Assembly (NCBI GenBank): GCA_013696745.1
Contig: JACCXZ010000010.1
Location: forward strand, 1 to 40,814
DNA from: Nocardioidaceae bacterium
GTDB taxonomy: Bacteria; Actinomycetota; Actinomycetes; Propionibacteriales; Nocardioidaceae
Length of the DNA stretch: 40,814 nt
Direction: 5' to 3'
The notes beneath the pieces are model-generated. The model saw only the letters and a program-made list of their open reading frames with translations. It had not been told where the DNA came from and did no database searches. The position numbers and the translations under genes are program-made. This document shows, piece after piece, positions 6,510 through 16,704 of this stretch; within the stretch, counting starts at the first letter, position 1, and every line of letters begins with the position of its first letter.

Positions 6510-8003
6510 TCAGGCTGCCGTTCGCAGTTCTGTGACGCTTGTGCTGCGTCGCAGGAATATCAGCGCCAGCGCTGTCACGAGCATGACCGCGGCGAGTGTT
6601 CCTCCAGCGAGGACGGACAACTGGACCCACGGGACAGGGACCCCCACCGGAGCGGTGACATCCCGCCCAGGCACACGCCCGGACCCCGGGGGTTGAACGG
6701 TTGTCCCGAAGAACCCCCTGGCTGCCAGCACCCCGGCTGCGGTAGCCAGGACGACGGTGGGCACGAGCGGAAGGAACACCTCGATCAACGTCGCCGCAGC
6801 GAGCACGCGGCGAGGCGTACCCGCGGCGGTCAGACTGGCCAGCGTCCGGCGGCGCGCGACGATGCCCTCCGCCGTGATGACCAGCAGTCCCGCGACGGCG
6901 ACCCCGATGGCGACCAGGAGCGCGGTGTCCAGCAGCCGGAAGGTGTCGGCGTAGAACCCGTCGCTCGGGTCGGTGAGCAGCAGGAAAGTGGTGCGGGTGC
7001 CCTGGACCGCGGCTCCGAGCAGCACGGCCAGCAGCACTGCTGAGCTGGCGCGGCTTGCGGTGAAGGGCGCATCGATCATCCGTCGGGCGGCGATGAGCAG
7101 GGACGGGTGCCGCACCCGTGGCGCTAACCATGTACCGATGAGAAACGCCACGGAGGCGGATCCGAAGATCAGCCCGACGGCTGCGAGTACGAACAGCACC
7201 AGGGCGACCCCGCCGTAGAGCCCCAGACCGTCCTGCAGGTCCAATCGCAGGGTGGTGGCCACGGTCTCCCAGATGGCCAGGCCACCGGCTCCGGCGAGCA
7301 GGAGCACGATGGGCAGCAGCGTGGGGGGACGCGTGACCCGGTGATGGATGACTCCGAAGGGACTGATGGTGACCTGGCGCAGGGCCACCACACTCGCGGC
7401 GGTAGCGGCCAACGGTACGGCCAGGAGGGCCAACACGATGGACCACGCGGGCAGGGTGACGTCAGTGGGCAGGGTGTGCGCGGCGGTGCTCAGCGTCTCG
7501 ACCATGCGAGTGACCTGCCCGTCGGACCCGATCTCGTCGGTGCTGATCTCGACCTCGCGGACCTGCGGTGAACCCAGCAGCGCGCGCCCCGCGAAGAAGG
7601 TGGTGGCTCCCAGCACCGCACCGATGACCCCCGCCAATCCTGTCTCCATCGCGGCGATGCGTCGTACGTCCGCGGGTGTCGCGCCGGCCATCCGCAGGGC
7701 CGCCAGCCGCCGGTCCCGCTGTGGCGCACCGACCCGGGTGCACTGGCCGACGAAGAACAGCACCGGCACACAGAGCAGGAGCAGCACGACGATGACTCCG
7801 GGTCGCAGCCCTGGCTGATTGAGCACATCTGCGGTGTACGGGCCGTCCCCAGAACCGATCGCGGCCACGCTCATGGCGAGGAGGAGGCCGGCCGTGGTGG
7901 CCGCCCCGCCCAGCGCGGTCAACACGATCCGCATCAGGTCCGCACGACCGCCGGTGGCCGCGAGCCGCAGACTCGTCGCAGGTCGTGGGCAGCTACTGCT
8001 CAC
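6510..8003 (-). CDS. FtsX-like ABC transporter permease
   Basis: This 497-residue integral membrane protein has many hydrophobic segments, for example at about 25-50 (IVLTALGGAATTAGLLLAMS), 68-87, 115-135, 180-205, 225-245, 255-285 and several near the C-terminus. One large loop follows the QRDRRLAALRMAGATPADVR element, which is typical of FtsX/MacB-type permeases. A second such element, ARRRTLASLTAAGTPRRVL, lies in the C-terminal half, so the protein is a tandem-type FtsX permease. It starts with GTG 8003, overlapping the ATPase stop (GTGA). With the ATPase it should export a substrate, perhaps a lipid or antibiotic, or act as a mechanotransducer. The substrate is unknown. Confidence 0.88.
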   Translation of the reverse strand: MSSSCPRPATSLRLAATGGRADLMRIVLTALGGAATTAGLLLAMSVAAIGSGDGPYTADVLNQPGLRPGVIVVLLLLCVPVLFFVGQCTRVGAPQRDRRLAALRMAGATPADVRRIAAMETGLAGVIGAVLGATTFFAGRALLGSPQVREVEISTDEIGSDGQVTRMVETLSTAAHTLPTDVTLPAWSIVLALLAVPLAATAASVVALRQVTISPFGVIHHRVTRPPTLLPIVLLLAGAGGLAIWETVATTLRLDLQDGLGLYGGVALVLFVLAAVGLIFGSASVAFLIGTWLAPRVRHPSLLIAARRMIDAPFTASRASSAVLLAVLLGAAVQGTRTTFLLLTDPSDGFYADTFRLLDTALLVAIGVAVAGLLVITAEGIVARRRTLASLTAAGTPRRVLAAATLIEVFLPLVPTVVLATAAGVLAARGFFGTTVQPPGSGRVPGRDVTAPVGVPVPWVQLSVLAGGTLAAVMLVTALALIFLRRSTSVTELRTAA

Positions 8004-8761
8004 GACCGACCCTCCTCGCGACCGGAAACCGAGGCCTCGTCCGCCGGGATCGGGTCGGGGAGGACGCCGTCACGCACCACGACCTCCCGGTCGCCGTACG
8101 CCGCTATGCGTGCATCATGCGTCACCAGGACCACGGTCGTGTCGGCCTCGCGTGCCACCCGGACCAGCTGGGTCATCACCTGCTCACCGGCCAGGGTGTC
8201 CAGCGCGCCAGTCGGCTCATCGGCGAACAACACCTCCGGTTCGGTGACCATGGCCCGGGCCACAGCGACACGCTGCGCCTGGCCACCGGACATCTCCGGT
8301 GGGCGCACCTTGGCCAGGTCGGCCACGCCGAACCGGTCGAGCCAGGTCGTGGCTGCCGTGATGGCAACTCCGCGGCGACGTCCGGACAGCAGCAAGGGCA
8401 AGGCAACGTTCTCCTCAGCGGTCAGTTCCGGCACCAGCTGTCCGAACTGGAACAGCACCCCGAACTGTTTGCGTCGCAGCCGTGATCGACTGGACTCGTT
8501 CTCTGCGGTGATGCAGCGTTCACCGAAGTGGACCTCACCGGCATCAGGGACCAGGATCCCTGCCAGGGTCAGCAGCAGCGTTGACTTGCCGGAGCCGGAT
8601 GGCCCGGTCACCGCCAGGATCTCTCCTCGGCGCACCTCGAGGGTGACGCCGCGCAGCGCAGCTGTGCGGCCGTAGGAGACCACCAACGAACGGGCGCGCA
8701 GCATGCTCGAGTCGGGGCCCAGATGGCTTGGGGTCGGTTGTGTCGTGGAGGTGCGGTTCAT
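8000..8761 (-). CDS. ABC transporter ATP-binding protein (LolD/MacB-like)
   Basis: This 253-residue cytoplasmic ATPase carries Walker A GPSGSGKST (about residues 53-61), a Q-loop near FGVLFQFGQLVPELTAEEN, signature MSGGQAQRVAVARAM (Met in place of the usual Leu), Walker B VLFADEP with catalytic Glu, D-loop GALDT and H-loop VLVTHDARIA. The Q-loop form with LVPELTAEENVALPLLL is that of the LolD/FtsE/MacB class that partners FtsX-type permeases. It overlaps the PadR gene by ATGA upstream and the permease by GTGA downstream, so the three genes form one operon. PadR very likely controls its transcription. Confidence 0.93.
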   Translation of the reverse strand: MNRTSTTQPTPSHLGPDSSMLRARSLVVSYGRTAALRGVTLEVRRGEILAVTGPSGSGKSTLLLTLAGILVPDAGEVHFGERCITAENESSRSRLRRKQFGVLFQFGQLVPELTAEENVALPLLLSGRRRGVAITAATTWLDRFGVADLAKVRPPEMSGGQAQRVAVARAMVTEPEVLFADEPTGALDTLAGEQVMTQLVRVAREADTTVVLVTHDARIAAYGDREVVVRDGVLPDPIPADEASVSGREEGRS

Positions 8762-9294
8762 GTCCCGATCTCCTTCTCGAGTGCGTGCACACGCTGTGAC
8801 GCGGTCTCCATCCAGCTGAGATCCGCATCCAGGTGTGAGAGGGCGTAGTCGGCGGCGAGCACCTCGTGCAGTGACGAGCCGCCATCGGTCTTGACCCGGG
8901 TGTAGTAGCGCATTCGTTCCAGGTGCGCCCGCCGCTGGCGCCGCAGGTAGTCGGCGGCGGCAGCGGCGTCGCCGACCAACAGGGCGATGGTCACCTTGGT
9001 GGACAGCGGATTGGAGACATGCGGTGCGGGTGTCTCGATGTTTCTCAGCCAGGCGTGGATCTCGGTCCGGCCGGTGTCGGTGACCTCATACACCGTGCGG
9101 TCTGGTCCGTCGACACGGTGCACCGCCACCGGCTCCACCAGCCCTTGGCGGTGCAGCCGCTCCAGCGTCGTGTAGACCTGCCCGAACGCGAGTGGGCGCG
9201 CAGCCGGGAAGCGCTCATCGTGTTCCCGCTTGAGCTCGTAGCCGTGCCGCTGCCCCCGACTCAGCAGTCCCAACAACACATGGCCCGTCGACAT
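8758..9294 (-). CDS. PadR-family transcriptional regulator
   Basis: This 178-residue protein has the PadR winged-helix at residues 4-80 (VLLGLLSRGQRHGYELKREH, FGQVYTTLERLHRQGLVEPV, the wing TVYEVTDTGRTEIHAWL). A Vir_act_alpha_C-type helical dimerisation domain covers about 95-175 (LSTKVTIALLVGDAAAAADY and after). PadR repressors often sit at the head of ABC exporter operons and respond to the exported drug or peptide. Its gene is first in the overlapping PadR-ATPase-permease operon, and an inverted repeat lies directly upstream, so autoregulation is likely. Start at ATG 9294, in line with family N-termini. Confidence 0.92.
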   Translation of the reverse strand: MSTGHVLLGLLSRGQRHGYELKREHDERFPAARPLAFGQVYTTLERLHRQGLVEPVAVHRVDGPDRTVYEVTDTGRTEIHAWLRNIETPAPHVSNPLSTKVTIALLVGDAAAAADYLRRQRRAHLERMRYYTRVKTDGGSSLHEVLAADYALSHLDADLSWMETASQRVHALEKEIGT

Positions 9295-9496: not shown

Positions 9497-11191
9497 GTGC
9501 GATCGACTGGGTTCACCGTGAGGACCGGCAGACGGGTTGCGGTCGTCCTGATGGCAACCGTGATGGCGGGCGTTGGCACCGCGCATCCGCGAACGCATGT
9601 CGACGCCCTTGCGACCACCCCCGCGAACATACCGACGGGGCAGTGGTTCGCCGACGACGAGTGGGGCGACGACGATTCCGATGAGGACGAGGACTCCTCG
9701 TCACAGGACGGCACCTGGAAAGCCGACAAGGACCTGGGCTCGCTGTTCACGATCGCGAAGCAGTACGGCGCCCAGAATGCGTGGGGCACCAGCGGCAGCG
9801 ACAACCGCAAGATCCTCGGTACGGGTGTCGACGTGGCCGTGATCGACACCGGCGTCGCGCCTGTCGCAGGCCTCGAGGACCCGACCCGCGTCGTCAACGG
9901 TCCGGACCTGTCGTTCGAGAGCCAGTCACCGAACACCCGGCACCTCGACGGGTACGGTCACGGGACGCACATGTCGGCCATCATCGCCGGCCGCGATGCC
10001 GACATCCCTGCCGGAGGGGAGGACGACGCCAAGCACTTCGCCGGTGTCGCTCCGGGAGCACGGATCGTCAACCTCAAGGTCGGCACGGCCGACGGTGCTG
10101 CCGACGTGTCCCAGGTGATCGCGGCCATCGACTGGGCGGTGCAACACCGCAACTCCGGCGGTCTCAACATCCGCGTGATCAACCTGTCCTACGGCACTCG
10201 CTCCACCCAGTCCTACACCATCGACCCGCTGGCGCACGCGGTGGAGAACGCGTGGCGGCACGGCATCGTCGTGGTGACCGCGGCCGGTAACAACGGGCCC
10301 GGAACGGCACTCAGCATGCCGGCGGCCGACCCGTACGTCATCGCGGTGGGAGCCGTCGACCACGTCGGCACCGATACCTCCGACGACGACCGTGTGAGCG
10401 ACTTCACCAACACCGGTACGCCGATCCGTCGACCCGACCTGCTCGCTCCCGGCAAGTCGGTGGTGTCGTTGCGCACGCCGGGCTCCTACGCCGACCGCTC
10501 GCACCCGGAAGGCCTGGTCACCGGTGACAGGCACCAGCGCTTCTTCCGAGGCAGCGGGACCTCACAGGCCGCTGCGGTCGTCAGCGGCGCGGTGGCCCTG
10601 CTCCTGCAACAGCGACCCAAGCTGAACCCAGACCAGGTGAAGCGGCTGCTCACCTCGACCGCTGACCGCCTCAAGAGCAGCCTCGACCCTGCGCAAGGTC
10701 GAGGCGTGCTCGACATCAAGGGCGCCCTTGAGGCGTCCACCCCGTCGGCCTTGTGGTCGCGTCAGACCTGGATACCGTCCACCGGCCTGGGAACCCTCGA
10801 GGCGTCCCGCGGTGACAACCAAGTCGTCGACCCGCTCAACGGGACTGTACTCACTGGTGAGGTGGACGCACTCGGGCAGCCCTGGGACGCCCGCTCCTGG
10901 TCGGCTGCCTCCAGCGCCGGTGAGGCGTGGTCCGGCGGCACCTGGAACGCCCGTAGCTGGTCTGGGGCCGACTGGACAGGTTCGTCGTGGACGGCTCGCT
11001 CGTGGTCGAGCGCCGAGTGGACCGCACGGTCGTGGTCGGGTGTCGACTGGTCGGCCCGTAGCTGGAGCGACGCTGTGTGGACCTCGTCCGGGTGGACAAG
11101 CCTGGACCTGTTGGCTCGGAGCTGGTCACAGGAGGCGTGGGCATCTCGGGCATGGCATGGAGACACGTGGGCCGCCAGCGACGTGTGGTGA
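9497..11191 (+). CDS. Exported S8 (subtilisin-like) serine protease with Trp-pentad tail
   Basis: The 564-residue precursor has a signal-like N-terminus (GRRVAVVLMATVMAGVGTAH, residues 11-30) and an acidic Asp/Glu/Ser stretch (52-72), perhaps a propeptide. The S8 domain is at about 105-412: Asp117 in AVIDTG, His155 in GHGTH, Asn265 of the oxyanion hole in AAGNNG, Ser356 in GSGTSQAAA. The whole triad is present. From residue 463 to 558 Trp recurs every fifth residue at 18 of 20 positions, with ARSWS blocks. The start GTG 9497 has GGAGG close upstream. It overlaps the next gene by GTGA. The tail has no named domain that I know; it may bind cell wall, polysaccharide or protein. Confidence 0.9.
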   Translation: MRSTGFTVRTGRRVAVVLMATVMAGVGTAHPRTHVDALATTPANIPTGQWFADDEWGDDDSDEDEDSSSQDGTWKADKDLGSLFTIAKQYGAQNAWGTSGSDNRKILGTGVDVAVIDTGVAPVAGLEDPTRVVNGPDLSFESQSPNTRHLDGYGHGTHMSAIIAGRDADIPAGGEDDAKHFAGVAPGARIVNLKVGTADGAADVSQVIAAIDWAVQHRNSGGLNIRVINLSYGTRSTQSYTIDPLAHAVENAWRHGIVVVTAAGNNGPGTALSMPAADPYVIAVGAVDHVGTDTSDDDRVSDFTNTGTPIRRPDLLAPGKSVVSLRTPGSYADRSHPEGLVTGDRHQRFFRGSGTSQAAAVVSGAVALLLQQRPKLNPDQVKRLLTSTADRLKSSLDPAQGRGVLDIKGALEASTPSALWSRQTWIPSTGLGTLEASRGDNQVVDPLNGTVLTGEVDALGQPWDARSWSAASSAGEAWSGGTWNARSWSGADWTGSSWTARSWSSAEWTARSWSGVDWSARSWSDAVWTSSGWTSLDLLARSWSQEAWASRAWHGDTWAASDVW

Positions 11192-13734
11192 CGCCAGGCA
11201 AGCGCCTGCCCTCTCCGGATGTCGGCATCGCGCTGCTGGTCGCCACGATGCTGGCGGTCACTGTCGGTCTGTTCGTTGCGCTCGGCGACCAGCAGACGGC
11301 TTCCGTCGCTGAGCCGGGGATCCCGTGGTGGTTGTTGCTACCACTGTTCGCCCTCGCCGAAGTCGCGGTCCTGCATGTGCCCACCTCGCGAGGAGGAGCC
11401 CACACGCACTCGCTGCGCGAGCTGCCCAACGTGCTTGGTTTGGCGTTCCTGGCGCCCACGGCGTACCTTCTGGCGCACCTCGCCGGCACCGGTGCGGCCC
11501 TGCTGCTGCATCGAAGACAGCGTGGGACGAAGCTCGCCTTCAACCTCGCCCTGTTCTCCCTCGAGGTCGTCGTGGGGATCACCGCCTACCGGCTGGTCCT
11601 CGGTGACGCCTCGCCGGTCGATCCCCGCGGATGGCTGGCGGCGCTGACGGCGACGTTGCTCACCGACGTGCTCAGCGCGCTGCTCATTGCTGGGGTGATC
11701 GCGCTGCACGAGCGCGAGCTGGACCGCTCGGTGCTGGCACAGACGCTCACCCGCGGTTCGCTTGCGGTGGTGGCCAACACCGCTCTGGCGTGCCTGGTGG
11801 TCGTCCTGCTGGTCCTCGAGAGTTCCGCGCTGCCGTTGCTGGTCGTGGTCCTCCTGGTCATGTTCGTCACCTACCGCGCGTACCTGGTGCTCTGGGTGGG
11901 ACACGCACGGGTACATCAGCTGTACCGCTTCGTGCAGGAGGCCGCCGACCTCACCGGGGCCGAGGAGCTGGTGACCGTGGTGCTGCGCGAGGCCCGGGAC
12001 GTCATGCACGCCTCAGCAGCCGAGGTCGTGCTCCTCGACGGCAGGGGGCAGATCCGGAGACGAGCCCTGTCCGAGGAGGCACCTGACGTGGTCGAGACGG
12101 CTGAGCCGGTCCCCGAGGAGACCTGGTGGCACTGCGCGCTCGACGGTGAGGCAGTTCGCGCAGACGTCACCGAGTGCGACCTGCACGGGGCGGATTGTCG
12201 CGGCGGTGTGGCCGCGCCGCTGCGTCTGGCCGAGGCCGGGGTCACCGGTGTGCTGCTGGTGCACGACCGCACGGTGGATGTCGATCCCTTCACCCCTGAG
12301 GACGCACAGCTGTTCGCCACGCTGACGGCGCACGCCTCGGCCGCGTTGGACAACGCGTTCATGCTCGACAAGCTGCGCAGGGTCGCGGCGGAGCGCGAGC
12401 ACCAGGCGATGCACGACACACTCACCGGTCTACCGAATCGTGCCGGCCTGTCGCAGCGGCTCGAAGCTGCTCTCGACGGCGGGACGCTGGCCCTGCTGCT
12501 GCTCGGTACGGACGACATCGCCCGCGTCGACGACGTGCTGGGCCATTCCTCCGGCATGGCGCTCCTGCGGCTCCTGGCGCAGCGGCTGGGCGAGGCCTCA
12601 CCGGAGCCGGTGTACCGCCTGGAGGGCGACCAGTTCGCGGTGGTCCTCGCCGGACGCGCCGCCGGTGACGCTCTCGACCTGGCGGGTCGGCTGGTGGCTG
12701 CGCTGCGTCAGCCACTGTTGCTGGGTGCCGTCCCGCTGCACGTCACGGCCCGGGTCGGCATCGCTTGTGCACCCCTGGACGGCGCTGACGCCGAGGATCT
12801 GATCCGCCTCGCAGTCCTGTCCATGCACACCGGTGCACCTGGTGAGATCACGACGGCGCACGGCAAGGCGCTTGGGGTGCAGGACGGGCAACGTCGTCTC
12901 GTCCTCGCCGCGGACCTGTCCACCGCGCTCGACGAGGGAGGGCTGGAGGTCTGGTACCAGCCGCAGGTCGTCCTTCGCGACGGCACCCTGCACGGAGCCG
13001 AGGCACTGCTGCGGTGGCAGCACCCGACGTACTCGTGGGTGAATCCCGGCGAGATCGTGGATGTTGCCGAGCGCGCCGGCCAGCTGCTCAGACTCACGGA
13101 GATGGTTCTGGCCACCGCCCTGGAGCAGCGGGCGCGTTGGCAGCGGGACGGCCTGTCGGTGTCGGTATCAGTGAACCTGGCCGCACAGACGATTCACGAA
13201 GAGGACCTGGCCGAACGTGTTGCTCGACATCTGTGGGCCACCCGGACGCCGGCCCGTCTGCTCGTCCTCGAGGTCACCGAGAGCGGCGTCATGCGGGACT
13301 CCGAGCGCGGGCTGGCTGTGCTGCGGAGTCTCTCTCAGCTGGGGGTCGAGCTCTCCATCGACGACTTCGGCACCGGCCACAGCTCGCTGGCGTACCTGGA
13401 CCGACTGCCCGTCCAGGAGGTCAAGATCGACCGCGCCTTCGTCCAGGCACTGGAGGGCCGGGAGCATGACAGCGCGGTGCTGCGTTCCACGATCGGGCTT
13501 GCCCACGAGATGGGCTTGCGCGTCGTGGTCGAAGGAGTCGAGGGGACAGAAGCGTTGCGCAAGGTCGAGGATCTGGGCAGCGATCTGGGGCAGGGTTACG
13601 TGATAGCACGGCCCATGCCCGGCGGTGACCTCTTCGCGTGGTGGACAGTCCGTCGGCACCCTCTTGTGTGCACGGGGCCAGACGACGCAGCCTCACGCTC
13701 GGTGAGATCAGTCGACGATTCCCGTCAACTCTGA
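11188..13734 (+). CDS. Membrane GAF-GGDEF-EAL protein, likely c-di-GMP phosphodiesterase
   Basis: The 848-residue product has an N-terminal block of about seven membrane helices (to about residue 245), a GAF-like sensor (about 255-390), a GGDEF domain (about 405-555) and an EAL domain (about 575-825). The GGDEF signature is E479-G-D-Q-F, so cyclase activity is probably lost, and the domain may instead bind GTP as a regulator. The EAL domain keeps E605-A-L-L-R-W, NLAAQT, EVTES, D725-D-F-G-T-G and KIDRAF, so hydrolysis of c-di-GMP is expected. Start GTG 11188 overlaps the protease stop; an in-frame ATG at 11152 is an alternative. The coupling suggests that the two products work together at the envelope. 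Confidence 0.9.
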   Translation: MTPGKRLPSPDVGIALLVATMLAVTVGLFVALGDQQTASVAEPGIPWWLLLPLFALAEVAVLHVPTSRGGAHTHSLRELPNVLGLAFLAPTAYLLAHLAGTGAALLLHRRQRGTKLAFNLALFSLEVVVGITAYRLVLGDASPVDPRGWLAALTATLLTDVLSALLIAGVIALHERELDRSVLAQTLTRGSLAVVANTALACLVVVLLVLESSALPLLVVVLLVMFVTYRAYLVLWVGHARVHQLYRFVQEAADLTGAEELVTVVLREARDVMHASAAEVVLLDGRGQIRRRALSEEAPDVVETAEPVPEETWWHCALDGEAVRADVTECDLHGADCRGGVAAPLRLAEAGVTGVLLVHDRTVDVDPFTPEDAQLFATLTAHASAALDNAFMLDKLRRVAAEREHQAMHDTLTGLPNRAGLSQRLEAALDGGTLALLLLGTDDIARVDDVLGHSSGMALLRLLAQRLGEASPEPVYRLEGDQFAVVLAGRAAGDALDLAGRLVAALRQPLLLGAVPLHVTARVGIACAPLDGADAEDLIRLAVLSMHTGAPGEITTAHGKALGVQDGQRRLVLAADLSTALDEGGLEVWYQPQVVLRDGTLHGAEALLRWQHPTYSWVNPGEIVDVAERAGQLLRLTEMVLATALEQRARWQRDGLSVSVSVNLAAQTIHEEDLAERVARHLWATRTPARLLVLEVTESGVMRDSERGLAVLRSLSQLGVELSIDDFGTGHSSLAYLDRLPVQEVKIDRAFVQALEGREHDSAVLRSTIGLAHEMGLRVVVEGVEGTEALRKVEDLGSDLGQGYVIARPMPGGDLFAWWTVRRHPLVCTGPDDAASRSVRSVDDSRQL

Positions 13735-13880: not shown

Positions 13881-15521
13881 ATGAGGGGCTCGTTGGCCCA
13901 ACGACCGGCGAGACCCGGCGTCCCCGACGCGATCCGCGAAGCTTCGCGGCGGCGTACGTTCGCTGTCATCAGCCACCCCGACGCCGGCAAGTCCACGCTC
14001 ACCGAGGCACTCGCGCTGCACGCCCGCGTCATCTCCGAGGCCGGCGCCGTGCACGGCAAGGCGGGACGCAGGACCACCGTGTCGGACTGGATGGACATGG
14101 AGAAGGCCCGAGGCATCTCGATCACCAGTACGGCCTTGCAGTTCACCTACGGCGACGCGGTCATCAACCTGCTGGACACCCCCGGCCACGCCGACTTCTC
14201 CGAGGACACCTACCGAGTGCTGGCCGCCGTGGACGCCGCTGTGATGCTCGTCGACGCCGCCAAGGGGCTGGAGGCGCAGACCTTCAAGCTGTTCGAGGTC
14301 TGCCGTCACCGGGGGATTCCGGTCATCACGGTGATCAACAAGTGGGACCGTCCCGGTCGGGATGCGCTCGAGCTCATGGACGAGATCCATGACCGCATGG
14401 ATCTCCGACCGACACCACTGACCTGGCCAGTCGGCGCACCTGGCGACTTCCGCGGCGTTCTGGACCGCACCAGCGGTGAGTTCGTCCGCTTCACCCGTAC
14501 GCCGGGTGGGTCCTCGGTGGCCGAAGAGGAGCGGATGGACGCAGCGGCCGCCCTCGAGGTCGAGGGGGAGGCGTGGACGACCGCGGTCGAGGAGCACGAC
14601 CTGCTGCGAGCCGACGGAGCCGACCACGACCACGCCACGTTCCTGGCCGCGCGGTCGACACCTGTGCTGTTCGCCTCGGCGGTGCTCAACTTCGGGGTGG
14701 GACAGCTGCTCGAGGTGCTGGTCGACGTCGCTCCGAGCCCGACGCCGCACCCGAGCGTCGGCAGCGACGCCCGGCCCCTGGAGGAGCCGTTCAGCGCCTT
14801 CGTGTTCAAGATCCAGGCCGGCATGGACCCCCAGCACCGTGACCGGATCGCTTTCGCGCGGGTCTGCTCGGGGGTCTTCGAGCGCGGCATGGTCGTCAAC
14901 CACGCCCAGACCGGCAAGCCGTTCGCCACCAAGTACGCGCAGGCCGTGTTCGGTCGCGACCGCGCCACCCTCGACCGCGCCTATCCCGGTGACGTCGTGG
15001 GCCTGGTCAACGCCGCGTCCATCGGGATCGGTGACACGCTCTACGTCGGTGCGCGCGTCACCTACCCGCCGATCCCGAGCTTCGCCCCGGAGCACTTCGC
15101 GGTCGCTACGGCCCGCGACTCCGGACGCTACAAGCAGTTCCAGCGGGGCATCGAGCAGCTCGGGGAGGAGGGTGTCGTGCAGGTGCTGCGCTCGGACCTG
15201 CGTGGCAACCAGTCACCGGTCCTGGCGGCTGTCGGCCCGATGCAGTTCGAGGTGTTCGAGCACCGGATGAAGAGCGAGTTCAACGCCGAGATCCGGCTGT
15301 CGCCGCTGGGGTACACAGTCGCCCGGCGCACCCGTCCCGAGGATCGGGCGCTGCTGGCGCAGCAGCGTGGTGTCGAGGTGCTCACCCGCTCCGACGGGAT
15401 GCTGATAGCGCTCTTCCCAGAGCGTTGGCGGCTGGCCAACGTGCAGCGCGACCACCCCGCGGTCCTGCTGGACAGCCTGGTGGCCGACGTGACCGCTCGT
15501 TTCGATCCGCCCGCGGCGTGA
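13881..15521 (+). CDS. prfC: Peptide chain release factor 3
   Basis: This 546-residue translational GTPase recycles class I release factors after termination. G1 is at residues 32-39 (HPDAGKST), then the switch region with KARGISITSTALQF, G3 DTPGHADFSEDTYR and G4 NKWDRP. The RF3-specific insert and domains II/III follow (FAFVFKIQAGMDPQHRDRIA-like text with FVFKIQAGMDPQHRDR, and KSEFNAEIRLSPLGY). The RGISITSTALQF form, with Ser at the second position, separates RF3 from EF-G (RGITI). ATG 13881 is the best start; a GTG at 13852 is out of frame. RF3 is present in only some actinobacteria. The gene is on its own between two hairpin-bearing gaps. Confidence 0.95.
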   Translation: MRGSLAQRPARPGVPDAIREASRRRTFAVISHPDAGKSTLTEALALHARVISEAGAVHGKAGRRTTVSDWMDMEKARGISITSTALQFTYGDAVINLLDTPGHADFSEDTYRVLAAVDAAVMLVDAAKGLEAQTFKLFEVCRHRGIPVITVINKWDRPGRDALELMDEIHDRMDLRPTPLTWPVGAPGDFRGVLDRTSGEFVRFTRTPGGSSVAEEERMDAAAALEVEGEAWTTAVEEHDLLRADGADHDHATFLAARSTPVLFASAVLNFGVGQLLEVLVDVAPSPTPHPSVGSDARPLEEPFSAFVFKIQAGMDPQHRDRIAFARVCSGVFERGMVVNHAQTGKPFATKYAQAVFGRDRATLDRAYPGDVVGLVNAASIGIGDTLYVGARVTYPPIPSFAPEHFAVATARDSGRYKQFQRGIEQLGEEGVVQVLRSDLRGNQSPVLAAVGPMQFEVFEHRMKSEFNAEIRLSPLGYTVARRTRPEDRALLAQQRGVEVLTRSDGMLIALFPERWRLANVQRDHPAVLLDSLVADVTARFDPPAA

Positions 15522-15627: not shown

Positions 15628-16704
15628 ATGGCCCGCCGCTACTTCGTCTTCGCCTGCACGGTGGCAGCGGTGACTGGAATCCTGGCTGTGCTGGGGGCCT
15701 TCGTCCTGGACCTGCCGCTGCGGGATCCGGACGGCTTCGTCGGGCCGGCGTACATCCGGCTCCCCGCGATCGTCGTCGTGTTTCTGCTGCTGGACATCGC
15801 GCCCGCGCTGTTCAAGGAGATCCGACGGTCCCGTAACGTTCTGCAGTCGTTGCGCACGGTCGTGGTCACACGCTGGTCGTTGACCCGCTTGGGGCTGATC
15901 ATCACCGGCCTGATCGCGTTCTACGTCACCTACGTGGGCTACCGCAACCTCAAGGGCTTCCTGCCGTTCGTACGCGACGACCACGCCGAGGTCGACTCCG
16001 CACTGCACGTGATCGACCGGGCGCTCTTCCTCGGCAACGAACCCGGTCCGGTGCTGCACGACCTGCTCGGGGTCGGTTTCACGGCCCACTTCCTGTCGTG
16101 GATCTACATCTCCTACCTGTTCTTCGTCCCGCTCTCGCTCGGTGCCGCACTGGTCTGGAGCCGCGACATACGTCGCGGTTTCTGGTACGTCACTGCACTG
16201 TGCCTGAACTGGTCGCTGGGCGTCGTCAGCTACTACATGCTGCCCTCACAGGGACCGATCTTCGCGTACAGCCAGTTCTACCGGGACCTTCCTGAGACCG
16301 GCGTCTCCGACCTGCAGGCAGCATTACTCGGCACCCGCCTCTATGTGCTCGCCGATCCGGGGGTGAGCACGTCGATCCAGGGCATTGCCGGCTTCGCGTC
16401 GCTGCACGTGTCGGTGGTGTTCACGGCGGCCCTGTTCTCGCACAAGGTCAGGGCCAACCGGTTGCTGCGCTACAGCCTGTGGGCCTACCTCGGCTTGACG
16501 ATCGTCTCCACGATCTATTTCGGCTGGCACTACCTCCTCGACGACGTCGCCGGAATCGGGATCGGCTGGCTGTCCGTGGCGCTCGCGGCCCGGTTCACCG
16601 GTCACCATCGCGCCCGCTCGACGCGGGTGACCCCCGCGCGAGAGATGATCCAGACCCCCGGCCCGGGCAATCGCTCGCCTGGGAAACCGCCCGATCCTGC
16701 CTGA
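15628..16704 (+). CDS. PAP2-superfamily membrane enzyme (inositol phosphorylceramide synthase-like)
   Basis: This 358-residue polytopic protein has about eight hydrophobic segments. The PAP2-type motifs are C2 around SLHVS (His260) and C3 in YFGWHYLLDDVAG (His301, Asp305); C1 is weak, as in the PAP2_3/Aur1-like branch. This branch includes inositol-phosphorylceramide synthase and actinobacterial enzymes acting on phosphatidylinositol-type or polyprenyl-phosphate lipids. The active site would face outside. A Pro/Arg-rich tail follows. The ATG at 15628 is chosen, preceded by TAATCT-like text that could be a -10 near 15612. The exact lipid substrate is unknown. Confidence 0.8.
   Translation: MARRYFVFACTVAAVTGILAVLGAFVLDLPLRDPDGFVGPAYIRLPAIVVVFLLLDIAPALFKEIRRSRNVLQSLRTVVVTRWSLTRLGLIITGLIAFYVTYVGYRNLKGFLPFVRDDHAEVDSALHVIDRALFLGNEPGPVLHDLLGVGFTAHFLSWIYISYLFFVPLSLGAALVWSRDIRRGFWYVTALCLNWSLGVVSYYMLPSQGPIFAYSQFYRDLPETGVSDLQAALLGTRLYVLADPGVSTSIQGIAGFASLHVSVVFTAALFSHKVRANRLLRYSLWAYLGLTIVSTIYFGWHYLLDDVAGIGIGWLSVALAARFTGHHRARSTRVTPAREMIQTPGPGNRSPGKPPDPA

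Follow-up and report, generated by a model that had tools for sequence, protein, structure and literature searches.

A conserved tryptophan-pentad tail on actinobacterial S8 subtilases encoded beside a membrane sensor

The only segment with a Trp at every fifth residue that our literature search found described is the tryptophan repeat (WR) of NANOG, where homodimerisation strength is set by how many Trp residues are present and Trp-Trp stacking best fits the data (PMC5446312); the human NANOG WR together with the C-terminal domain forms ThT-positive, high-molecular-weight assemblies (PMC9106587). W_rich_C (PF07483), a Trp-rich C-terminal domain, is listed beside subtilisins (PMC2605481), and in the LapD-LapG system a c-di-GMP receptor controls a periplasmic protease (PMC4359373, PMC3032553). 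Here we analyse a window (the whole stretch of 40,814 nucleotides under study, from a Nocardioidaceae bacterium) in which the gene for an S8 subtilase with a Trp-pentad tail overlaps that of a membrane sensor. This pair resembles these systems, as well as the pentapeptide repeat proteins and the mycosins, and differs from all of them: (i) Like the NANOG WR, the tail has a Trp at every fifth residue, mostly small or hydroxyl spacers, low complexity and predicted disorder. However, the WR, part of a nuclear vertebrate transcription factor, has 10 Trp and is free of charged residues, whereas the bacterial tails sit on a putatively exported protease, have ~18-39 Trp and carry scattered charges; the analogy is one of pattern, and no homology is claimed. 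(ii) With the pentapeptide repeat proteins (PF00805, PF13576; QnrB1) the tail shares a strict five-residue period, a small or hydroxyl residue at +1 and Gly at +2, although its centre is Trp rather than Leu/Phe and its i-2 residue is polar or charged. (iii) As in W_rich_C, a Trp-rich C-terminal region is found on a subtilisin-like protein, but the tail had no match to that model at E values up to 10. (iv) Like mycosin, the subtilase of type VII secretion (TIGR03921), the protein appears to be an exported actinobacterial S8 enzyme, and it aligns with the mycosin model at 164.4 bits; this is below the curated cut-off of 278.75, so a mycosin assignment was rejected, and where mycosin has a C-terminal membrane helix it has the Trp tail. 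(v) As in LapD-LapG, a membrane GGDEF-EAL protein is paired with a protease that is probably exported. LapG, however, belongs to the cysteine proteases, and in LapD there is a periplasmic output domain, whereas here the protease is of the S8 family (the only protease domain in the window protein, in which no LapG-type domain was found), the membrane domain has short loops and the output is sometimes a histidine kinase; LapD-LapG is at most a functional parallel. Neither a Trp-pentad subtilase nor the pairing of a subtilase with GGDEF was found in the literature searched.

The window locus

The window derives from an 85%-complete assembly. Genes were called by a simple composition rule. The features of the pair, all on the + strand, are:

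9497..11191, +, S8 subtilase gene with the Trp-pentad tail, 564 aa, GTG start
9497..9607, +, putative signal peptide with a basic n-region and a hydrophobic core, read by eye
9845..9847, +, catalytic Asp117, invariant in 66 homologues
9959..9961, +, catalytic His155, invariant in 66 homologues
10562..10564, +, catalytic Ser356, invariant in 66 homologues
10766..10963, +, conserved linker (GLGTLEASRG...VVDP..G..L.GEVDALG.PWD) with the first four register Trp, predicted ordered to ~residue 489
10883..11170, +, Trp-pentad array, Trp at 18 of 20 register positions
10964..11188, +, stretch of the array where the AlphaFold pLDDT is <50
11188..11191, +, GTGA overlap of the GTG start of the partner gene with the stop codon of the protease gene
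11188..13734, +, partner gene encoding an 848-aa membrane sensor that has GAF, GGDEF and EAL domains
11188..11937, +, MASE9-like membrane domain of ~250 aa with ~7 hydrophobic segments and short loops
11962..12354, +, GAF domain (Pfam GAF_3, E=5.8e-10)
12406..12813, +, GGDEF domain with a degenerate signature, EGDQF (sequence motif)
12910..13614, +, EAL phosphodiesterase domain with intact EALLRW and DDFGTG motifs (sequence motif)

The Pfam model Peptidase_S8 matched residues 108-403 (E=2.3e-46; 158.8 bits against a cut-off of 21.8), the matches listed in a fold search with the whole protease were subtilases, and D117, H155 and S356, together with the oxyanion Asn N265, were all invariant in the alignment of homologues. 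Read by eye, the sequence suggests that the protease is exported. The array begins in the linker and occupies positions 463, 468, 478, 483, 488, 493, 498, 503, 508, 513, 518, 523, 528, 533, 543, 548, 553 and 558, the five-residue register being broken only by S473 and L538; a further Trp, at 564, is out of register. When the 107-residue tail was shuffled 200,000 times, the best register never exceeded 13 Trp, and none of the 200,000 shuffles reached the 18 observed. The tail contains six copies of ARSWS, written in mixed synonymous codons, with RSW appearing in several codon combinations, and Tandem Repeats Finder reported no DNA tandem repeat in this region; a recent tandem duplication was accordingly rejected as its source, and the pattern is kept at the protein level. 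Thus, an S8 protease with an intact triad and 18 Trp in 20 positions spaced five apart, with repeated ARSWS blocks, both of them claims of the original prediction, held up. In charge, 17 of 104 tail residues are ionisable (7 Arg and 10 Asp/Glu). None of the Pfam and NCBIfam models covers this tail, the Pfam pentapeptide repeat models included, and PHROGs gave no match to it.

In the partner, the GGDEF domain is probably inactive as a cyclase, judging from its signature; GGDEF or a near variant is retained by most partners elsewhere, unlike the EGDQF of the window. Given a degenerate GGDEF site alongside an intact EAL site, the output in the window is probably c-di-GMP breakdown. The pair is followed by ordinary genes, for release factor RF3 (13881-15521) and a PAP2-type phosphatase (15628-16704), and an ABC transporter ATPase gene with a small gene upstream of it lies divergently from the protease (8000-9294, - strand). 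By eye, the small gene reads like a PadR-type regulator.

Conservation and possible fold of the tail

As a module the tail is conserved: it was found on at least 75 S8 subtilases from across Actinomycetota. In these 75 proteins the commonest register holds 1,252 of 1,341 Trp, and 1,207 of 1,266 Trp-Trp gaps are a multiple of 5. A typical pentad reads W-[ST]-G-x-[STA], where x varies freely among Arg, Ala, Asn, Thr, Ser, Lys and His, and the tails overall are near charge-neutral (K/R 5.8%, D/E 6.0%). The first three relatives, from the same family of genomes, are 53-57% identical to the window protein and have the same tail with different spacers and Trp gaps that are nearly all multiples of 5; the tail of the relative L005 is the same as that of L095. 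When a profile of the linker and tail was searched, 51 of 395 genomes of the class and 38 of 297 of the phylum had matches, of which a few with the lowest scores are frame artefacts; several low-scoring profile or pattern matches such as QAKPW or WPEPS were discarded as wrong-frame artefacts. Carriers include Spirilliplanes, Dactylosporangium, Motilibacter, Kineosporia, Cellulomonas and several uncultured actinobacteria, and in a tree of the catalytic domain the tailed enzymes split from 25 untailed subtilases with a branch support of 100/97. Between proteins whose catalytic domains are 55-70% identical, Trp columns were ~93% conserved, compared with 38% in the rest of the tail, figures that are rough, the alignment itself leaning on Trp. 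The expectations that related tails would occur on other actinobacterial S8 proteins, and that their Trp would be conserved between species, were supported. The further statement that no named domain has this pattern was right as regards Pfam and NCBIfam, but the named tryptophan repeat of NANOG does have a Trp at every fifth residue (PMC5446312).

Two side observations concern sequence near or like the tail. A CWC motif, possibly a disulfide or metal site, is conserved near the tail start in L036, L037, L040, L047, L051, L064 and L134. Separately, AT-rich phage proteins from viral contigs contain long Trp-every-fifth-residue arrays of another type, W-x-x-G-[TIV] (L193 2560-3213, L235 3084-4889, L251 5454-6788, L236 5766-7691 on the - strand, L245 and L253); the proteins of this type that were scanned had no Pfam match, and they possibly represent a separate Trp-pentad fold.

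What structure the tail adopts was approached by prediction. With the full window protein and 66 sequences, AlphaFold ordered the protease and linker to ~residue 489, Trp 463, 468, 478 and 483 included, and modelled the linker with these first four Trp (463-483) confidently together with the protease domain; from residue 490 the pLDDT was 23-32 and the tail was predicted to be disordered. For L045, a more regular homologue, prediction on the tail alone with 39 sequences gave continuous beta structure in one model (pLDDT 53, pTM 0.35), the remaining four models being lower, and no fold match with E <0.001 was found for this model among PDB and viral structures. AlphaFold-type prediction judges low-complexity repeats poorly, so these models demonstrate neither disorder nor a solenoid. 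The regular solenoid put forward in the original prediction is not supported by them. A specific form of it, in which the tail would be a beta-solenoid related to the pentapeptide repeat proteins, with Trp at the centre and a regular surface binding glycan or another protein, we consider doubtful. It draws support from Pentapeptide_3, which matches some homologous tails (best 8.9e-9 in L138, above the model's cut-off), from a tail profile that places Trp on the central residue of the QnrB1 pentads (E=0.0025), and from the L045 model, whose weak best PDB matches include left-handed beta-helices. However, the matches to Pentapeptide_3 are confined to 6 of 39 tails, mostly weak and over short stretches, the window tail has no Pfam match and is predicted disordered, and the L045 model is of low confidence, with every fold match at E >=0.001. 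Moreover, the i-2 residue, which is small and buried in pentapeptide repeats, is here often Arg, Asn, Lys or His, and the pentad autocorrelation, a guide to coil length, is strongest at 10 residues (two pentads) rather than only at 20, although this is not decisive.

Trp favours membrane interfaces, and the tail might instead be a flexible, Trp-rich anchor running along the outer leaflet, with the protease tethered close to the sensor. The predicted lack of structure of the isolated tail would suit such a role, as would a polytopic partner with short loops; but the near-neutral tails have no basic patch, and we regard this reading as unlikely.

Linkage to the sensor gene

The protease and its conserved partner, a neighbour that the original prediction did not mention, are linked in an operon-like manner: as in the window, the gaps between the two genes are short in homologous pairs. 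The membrane domain of the sensor lay directly downstream in 58 of 70 tailed loci and divergently upstream in 4 more (in 8 of the 70 it was not found in the DNA examined), as scored with a profile that was built from 35 partners of tailed loci and is hence sensitive to those loci. With the same profile it adjoined none of 27 untailed S8 loci (Fisher p=5e-15 versus the tailed ones, a statistic inflated by counting related genomes as independent). An S8 beside the sensor bears the tail, and the sampled untailed S8s are not beside it. Across 395 genomes, 44 have both tail and sensor, 7 the tail only, 56 the sensor only and 288 neither, a strong co-occurrence to be read with caution because of shared ancestry; 12 genomes contain two or three pairs of tailed S8 and sensor each.

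To avoid linker bias, we also searched 297 genomes for nine TGG codons 15 bases apart. Sixteen of the loci fetched, a set that overlaps partly with the first one, encode an S8 with a Trp-pentad tail, and 15 of the 16 have the membrane domain nearby, scored with the same profile; at the sixteenth, L174, there is a second S8 nearby. A subgroup found in this way lacks the GSLEASRG linker (ARQWAARQW, ARRW and VNWRG tails) and yet keeps both the Trp period and the partner.

Output domains are swappable. Among 35 partners, 31 have GGDEF-EAL and 4 have HisKA-HATPase, with the membrane domain unchanged. A further output variant was seen in Kineosporia (L108, 8373-11224), where two kinase-like genes follow the tailed S8, HATPase and a weak HAMP match being present in one, HisKA_3 and HATPase in the other. 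The Pfam model MASE9 (PF20972) matched 4 of the 35 partners at E up to 0.1 (one of them, L139, above the cut-off, with 25.8 bits against 24.3) and did not match the window partner; this membrane domain marks a widespread actinobacterial sensor family that MASE9 barely covers.

Could the protease and sensor be mere co-transcribed neighbours, the input of the sensor having nothing to do with the protease? The sensor family does occur alone: with the same profile, 19 of 20 sensors taken from outside the listed pairs had no S8 nearby (L301-L320 except L309, all with the same membrane domain and GGDEF-EAL), so the sensor is able to work without the protease; the sole exception, L309, has an S8 with a Trp-pentad tail. 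Against chance neighbourhood, the pairing is phylum-wide, extends over two subgroups with different linkers, recurs in several copies per genome and persists through short or overlapping gene gaps, tandem and divergent orders and swapped outputs, and we judge this alternative improbable, slightly more so than the membrane anchor. Finally, that the tail is neutral low-complexity sequence from the expansion of TGG-containing repeats in GC-rich DNA, as the near-perfect repeats of some homologues might suggest, is very improbable, given conserved Trp amid variable spacers (with the reservation about the alignment made above), mixed codons, the lack of a DNA tandem repeat in the window, and coding cases in the fetched Actinomycetota loci that sit on S8 subtilases.

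Proposed role

Our best explanation, which we hold tentatively and at a little short of even confidence, is that the tail is a self-associating and/or surface-contacting Trp-repeat module and that the protease and the downstream sensor form one functional unit. The tail would be a conserved low-complexity tryptophan repeat on a distinct family of exported actinobacterial subtilases, and its many regularly spaced Trp rings would make tails associate with one another and/or bring them into contact with the surface of the membrane or wall, a self-associating or anchoring role proposed by analogy with the NANOG WR. In this manner the active protease domain would be held non-covalently at the envelope, beside the sensor. 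Because the sensor is nearly devoid of an extracytoplasmic domain (~7 hydrophobic segments joined by short loops), its outside input would most likely be supplied or shaped by the exported protease, through its activity, its assembly state or its tail. The GAF and GGDEF-EAL domains, or a histidine kinase in some species, would then convert this input into c-di-GMP turnover or a phosphorelay. Several points count against this explanation: the 17 charged residues of the window tail would weaken simple aromatic gelling, 8 of 70 tailed loci have no sensor in the DNA examined, and the sensor family is also found by itself.

Taken together, the tail and the sensor appear to belong to a single, undescribed unit of surface signalling. 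We put forward as possible, with slightly greater reserve than the explanation above, a phylum-wide system in which an envelope-assembled tailed subtilase would be the extracytoplasmic subunit of a polytopic sensor, the tail would be the coupling element, and c-di-GMP and histidine-kinase outputs would be interchangeable.

The inputs of actinobacterial c-di-GMP enzymes are mostly unknown, and a conserved pair of protease and sensor would offer a concrete, testable input for a whole class of them. A bacterial tryptophan repeat analogous to that of NANOG would represent the second natural case of a simple assembly code based on Trp spacing, and the dozens of tail variants with different spacers would help to reveal the effect of the spacing and might serve as a short protein-anchoring tag.
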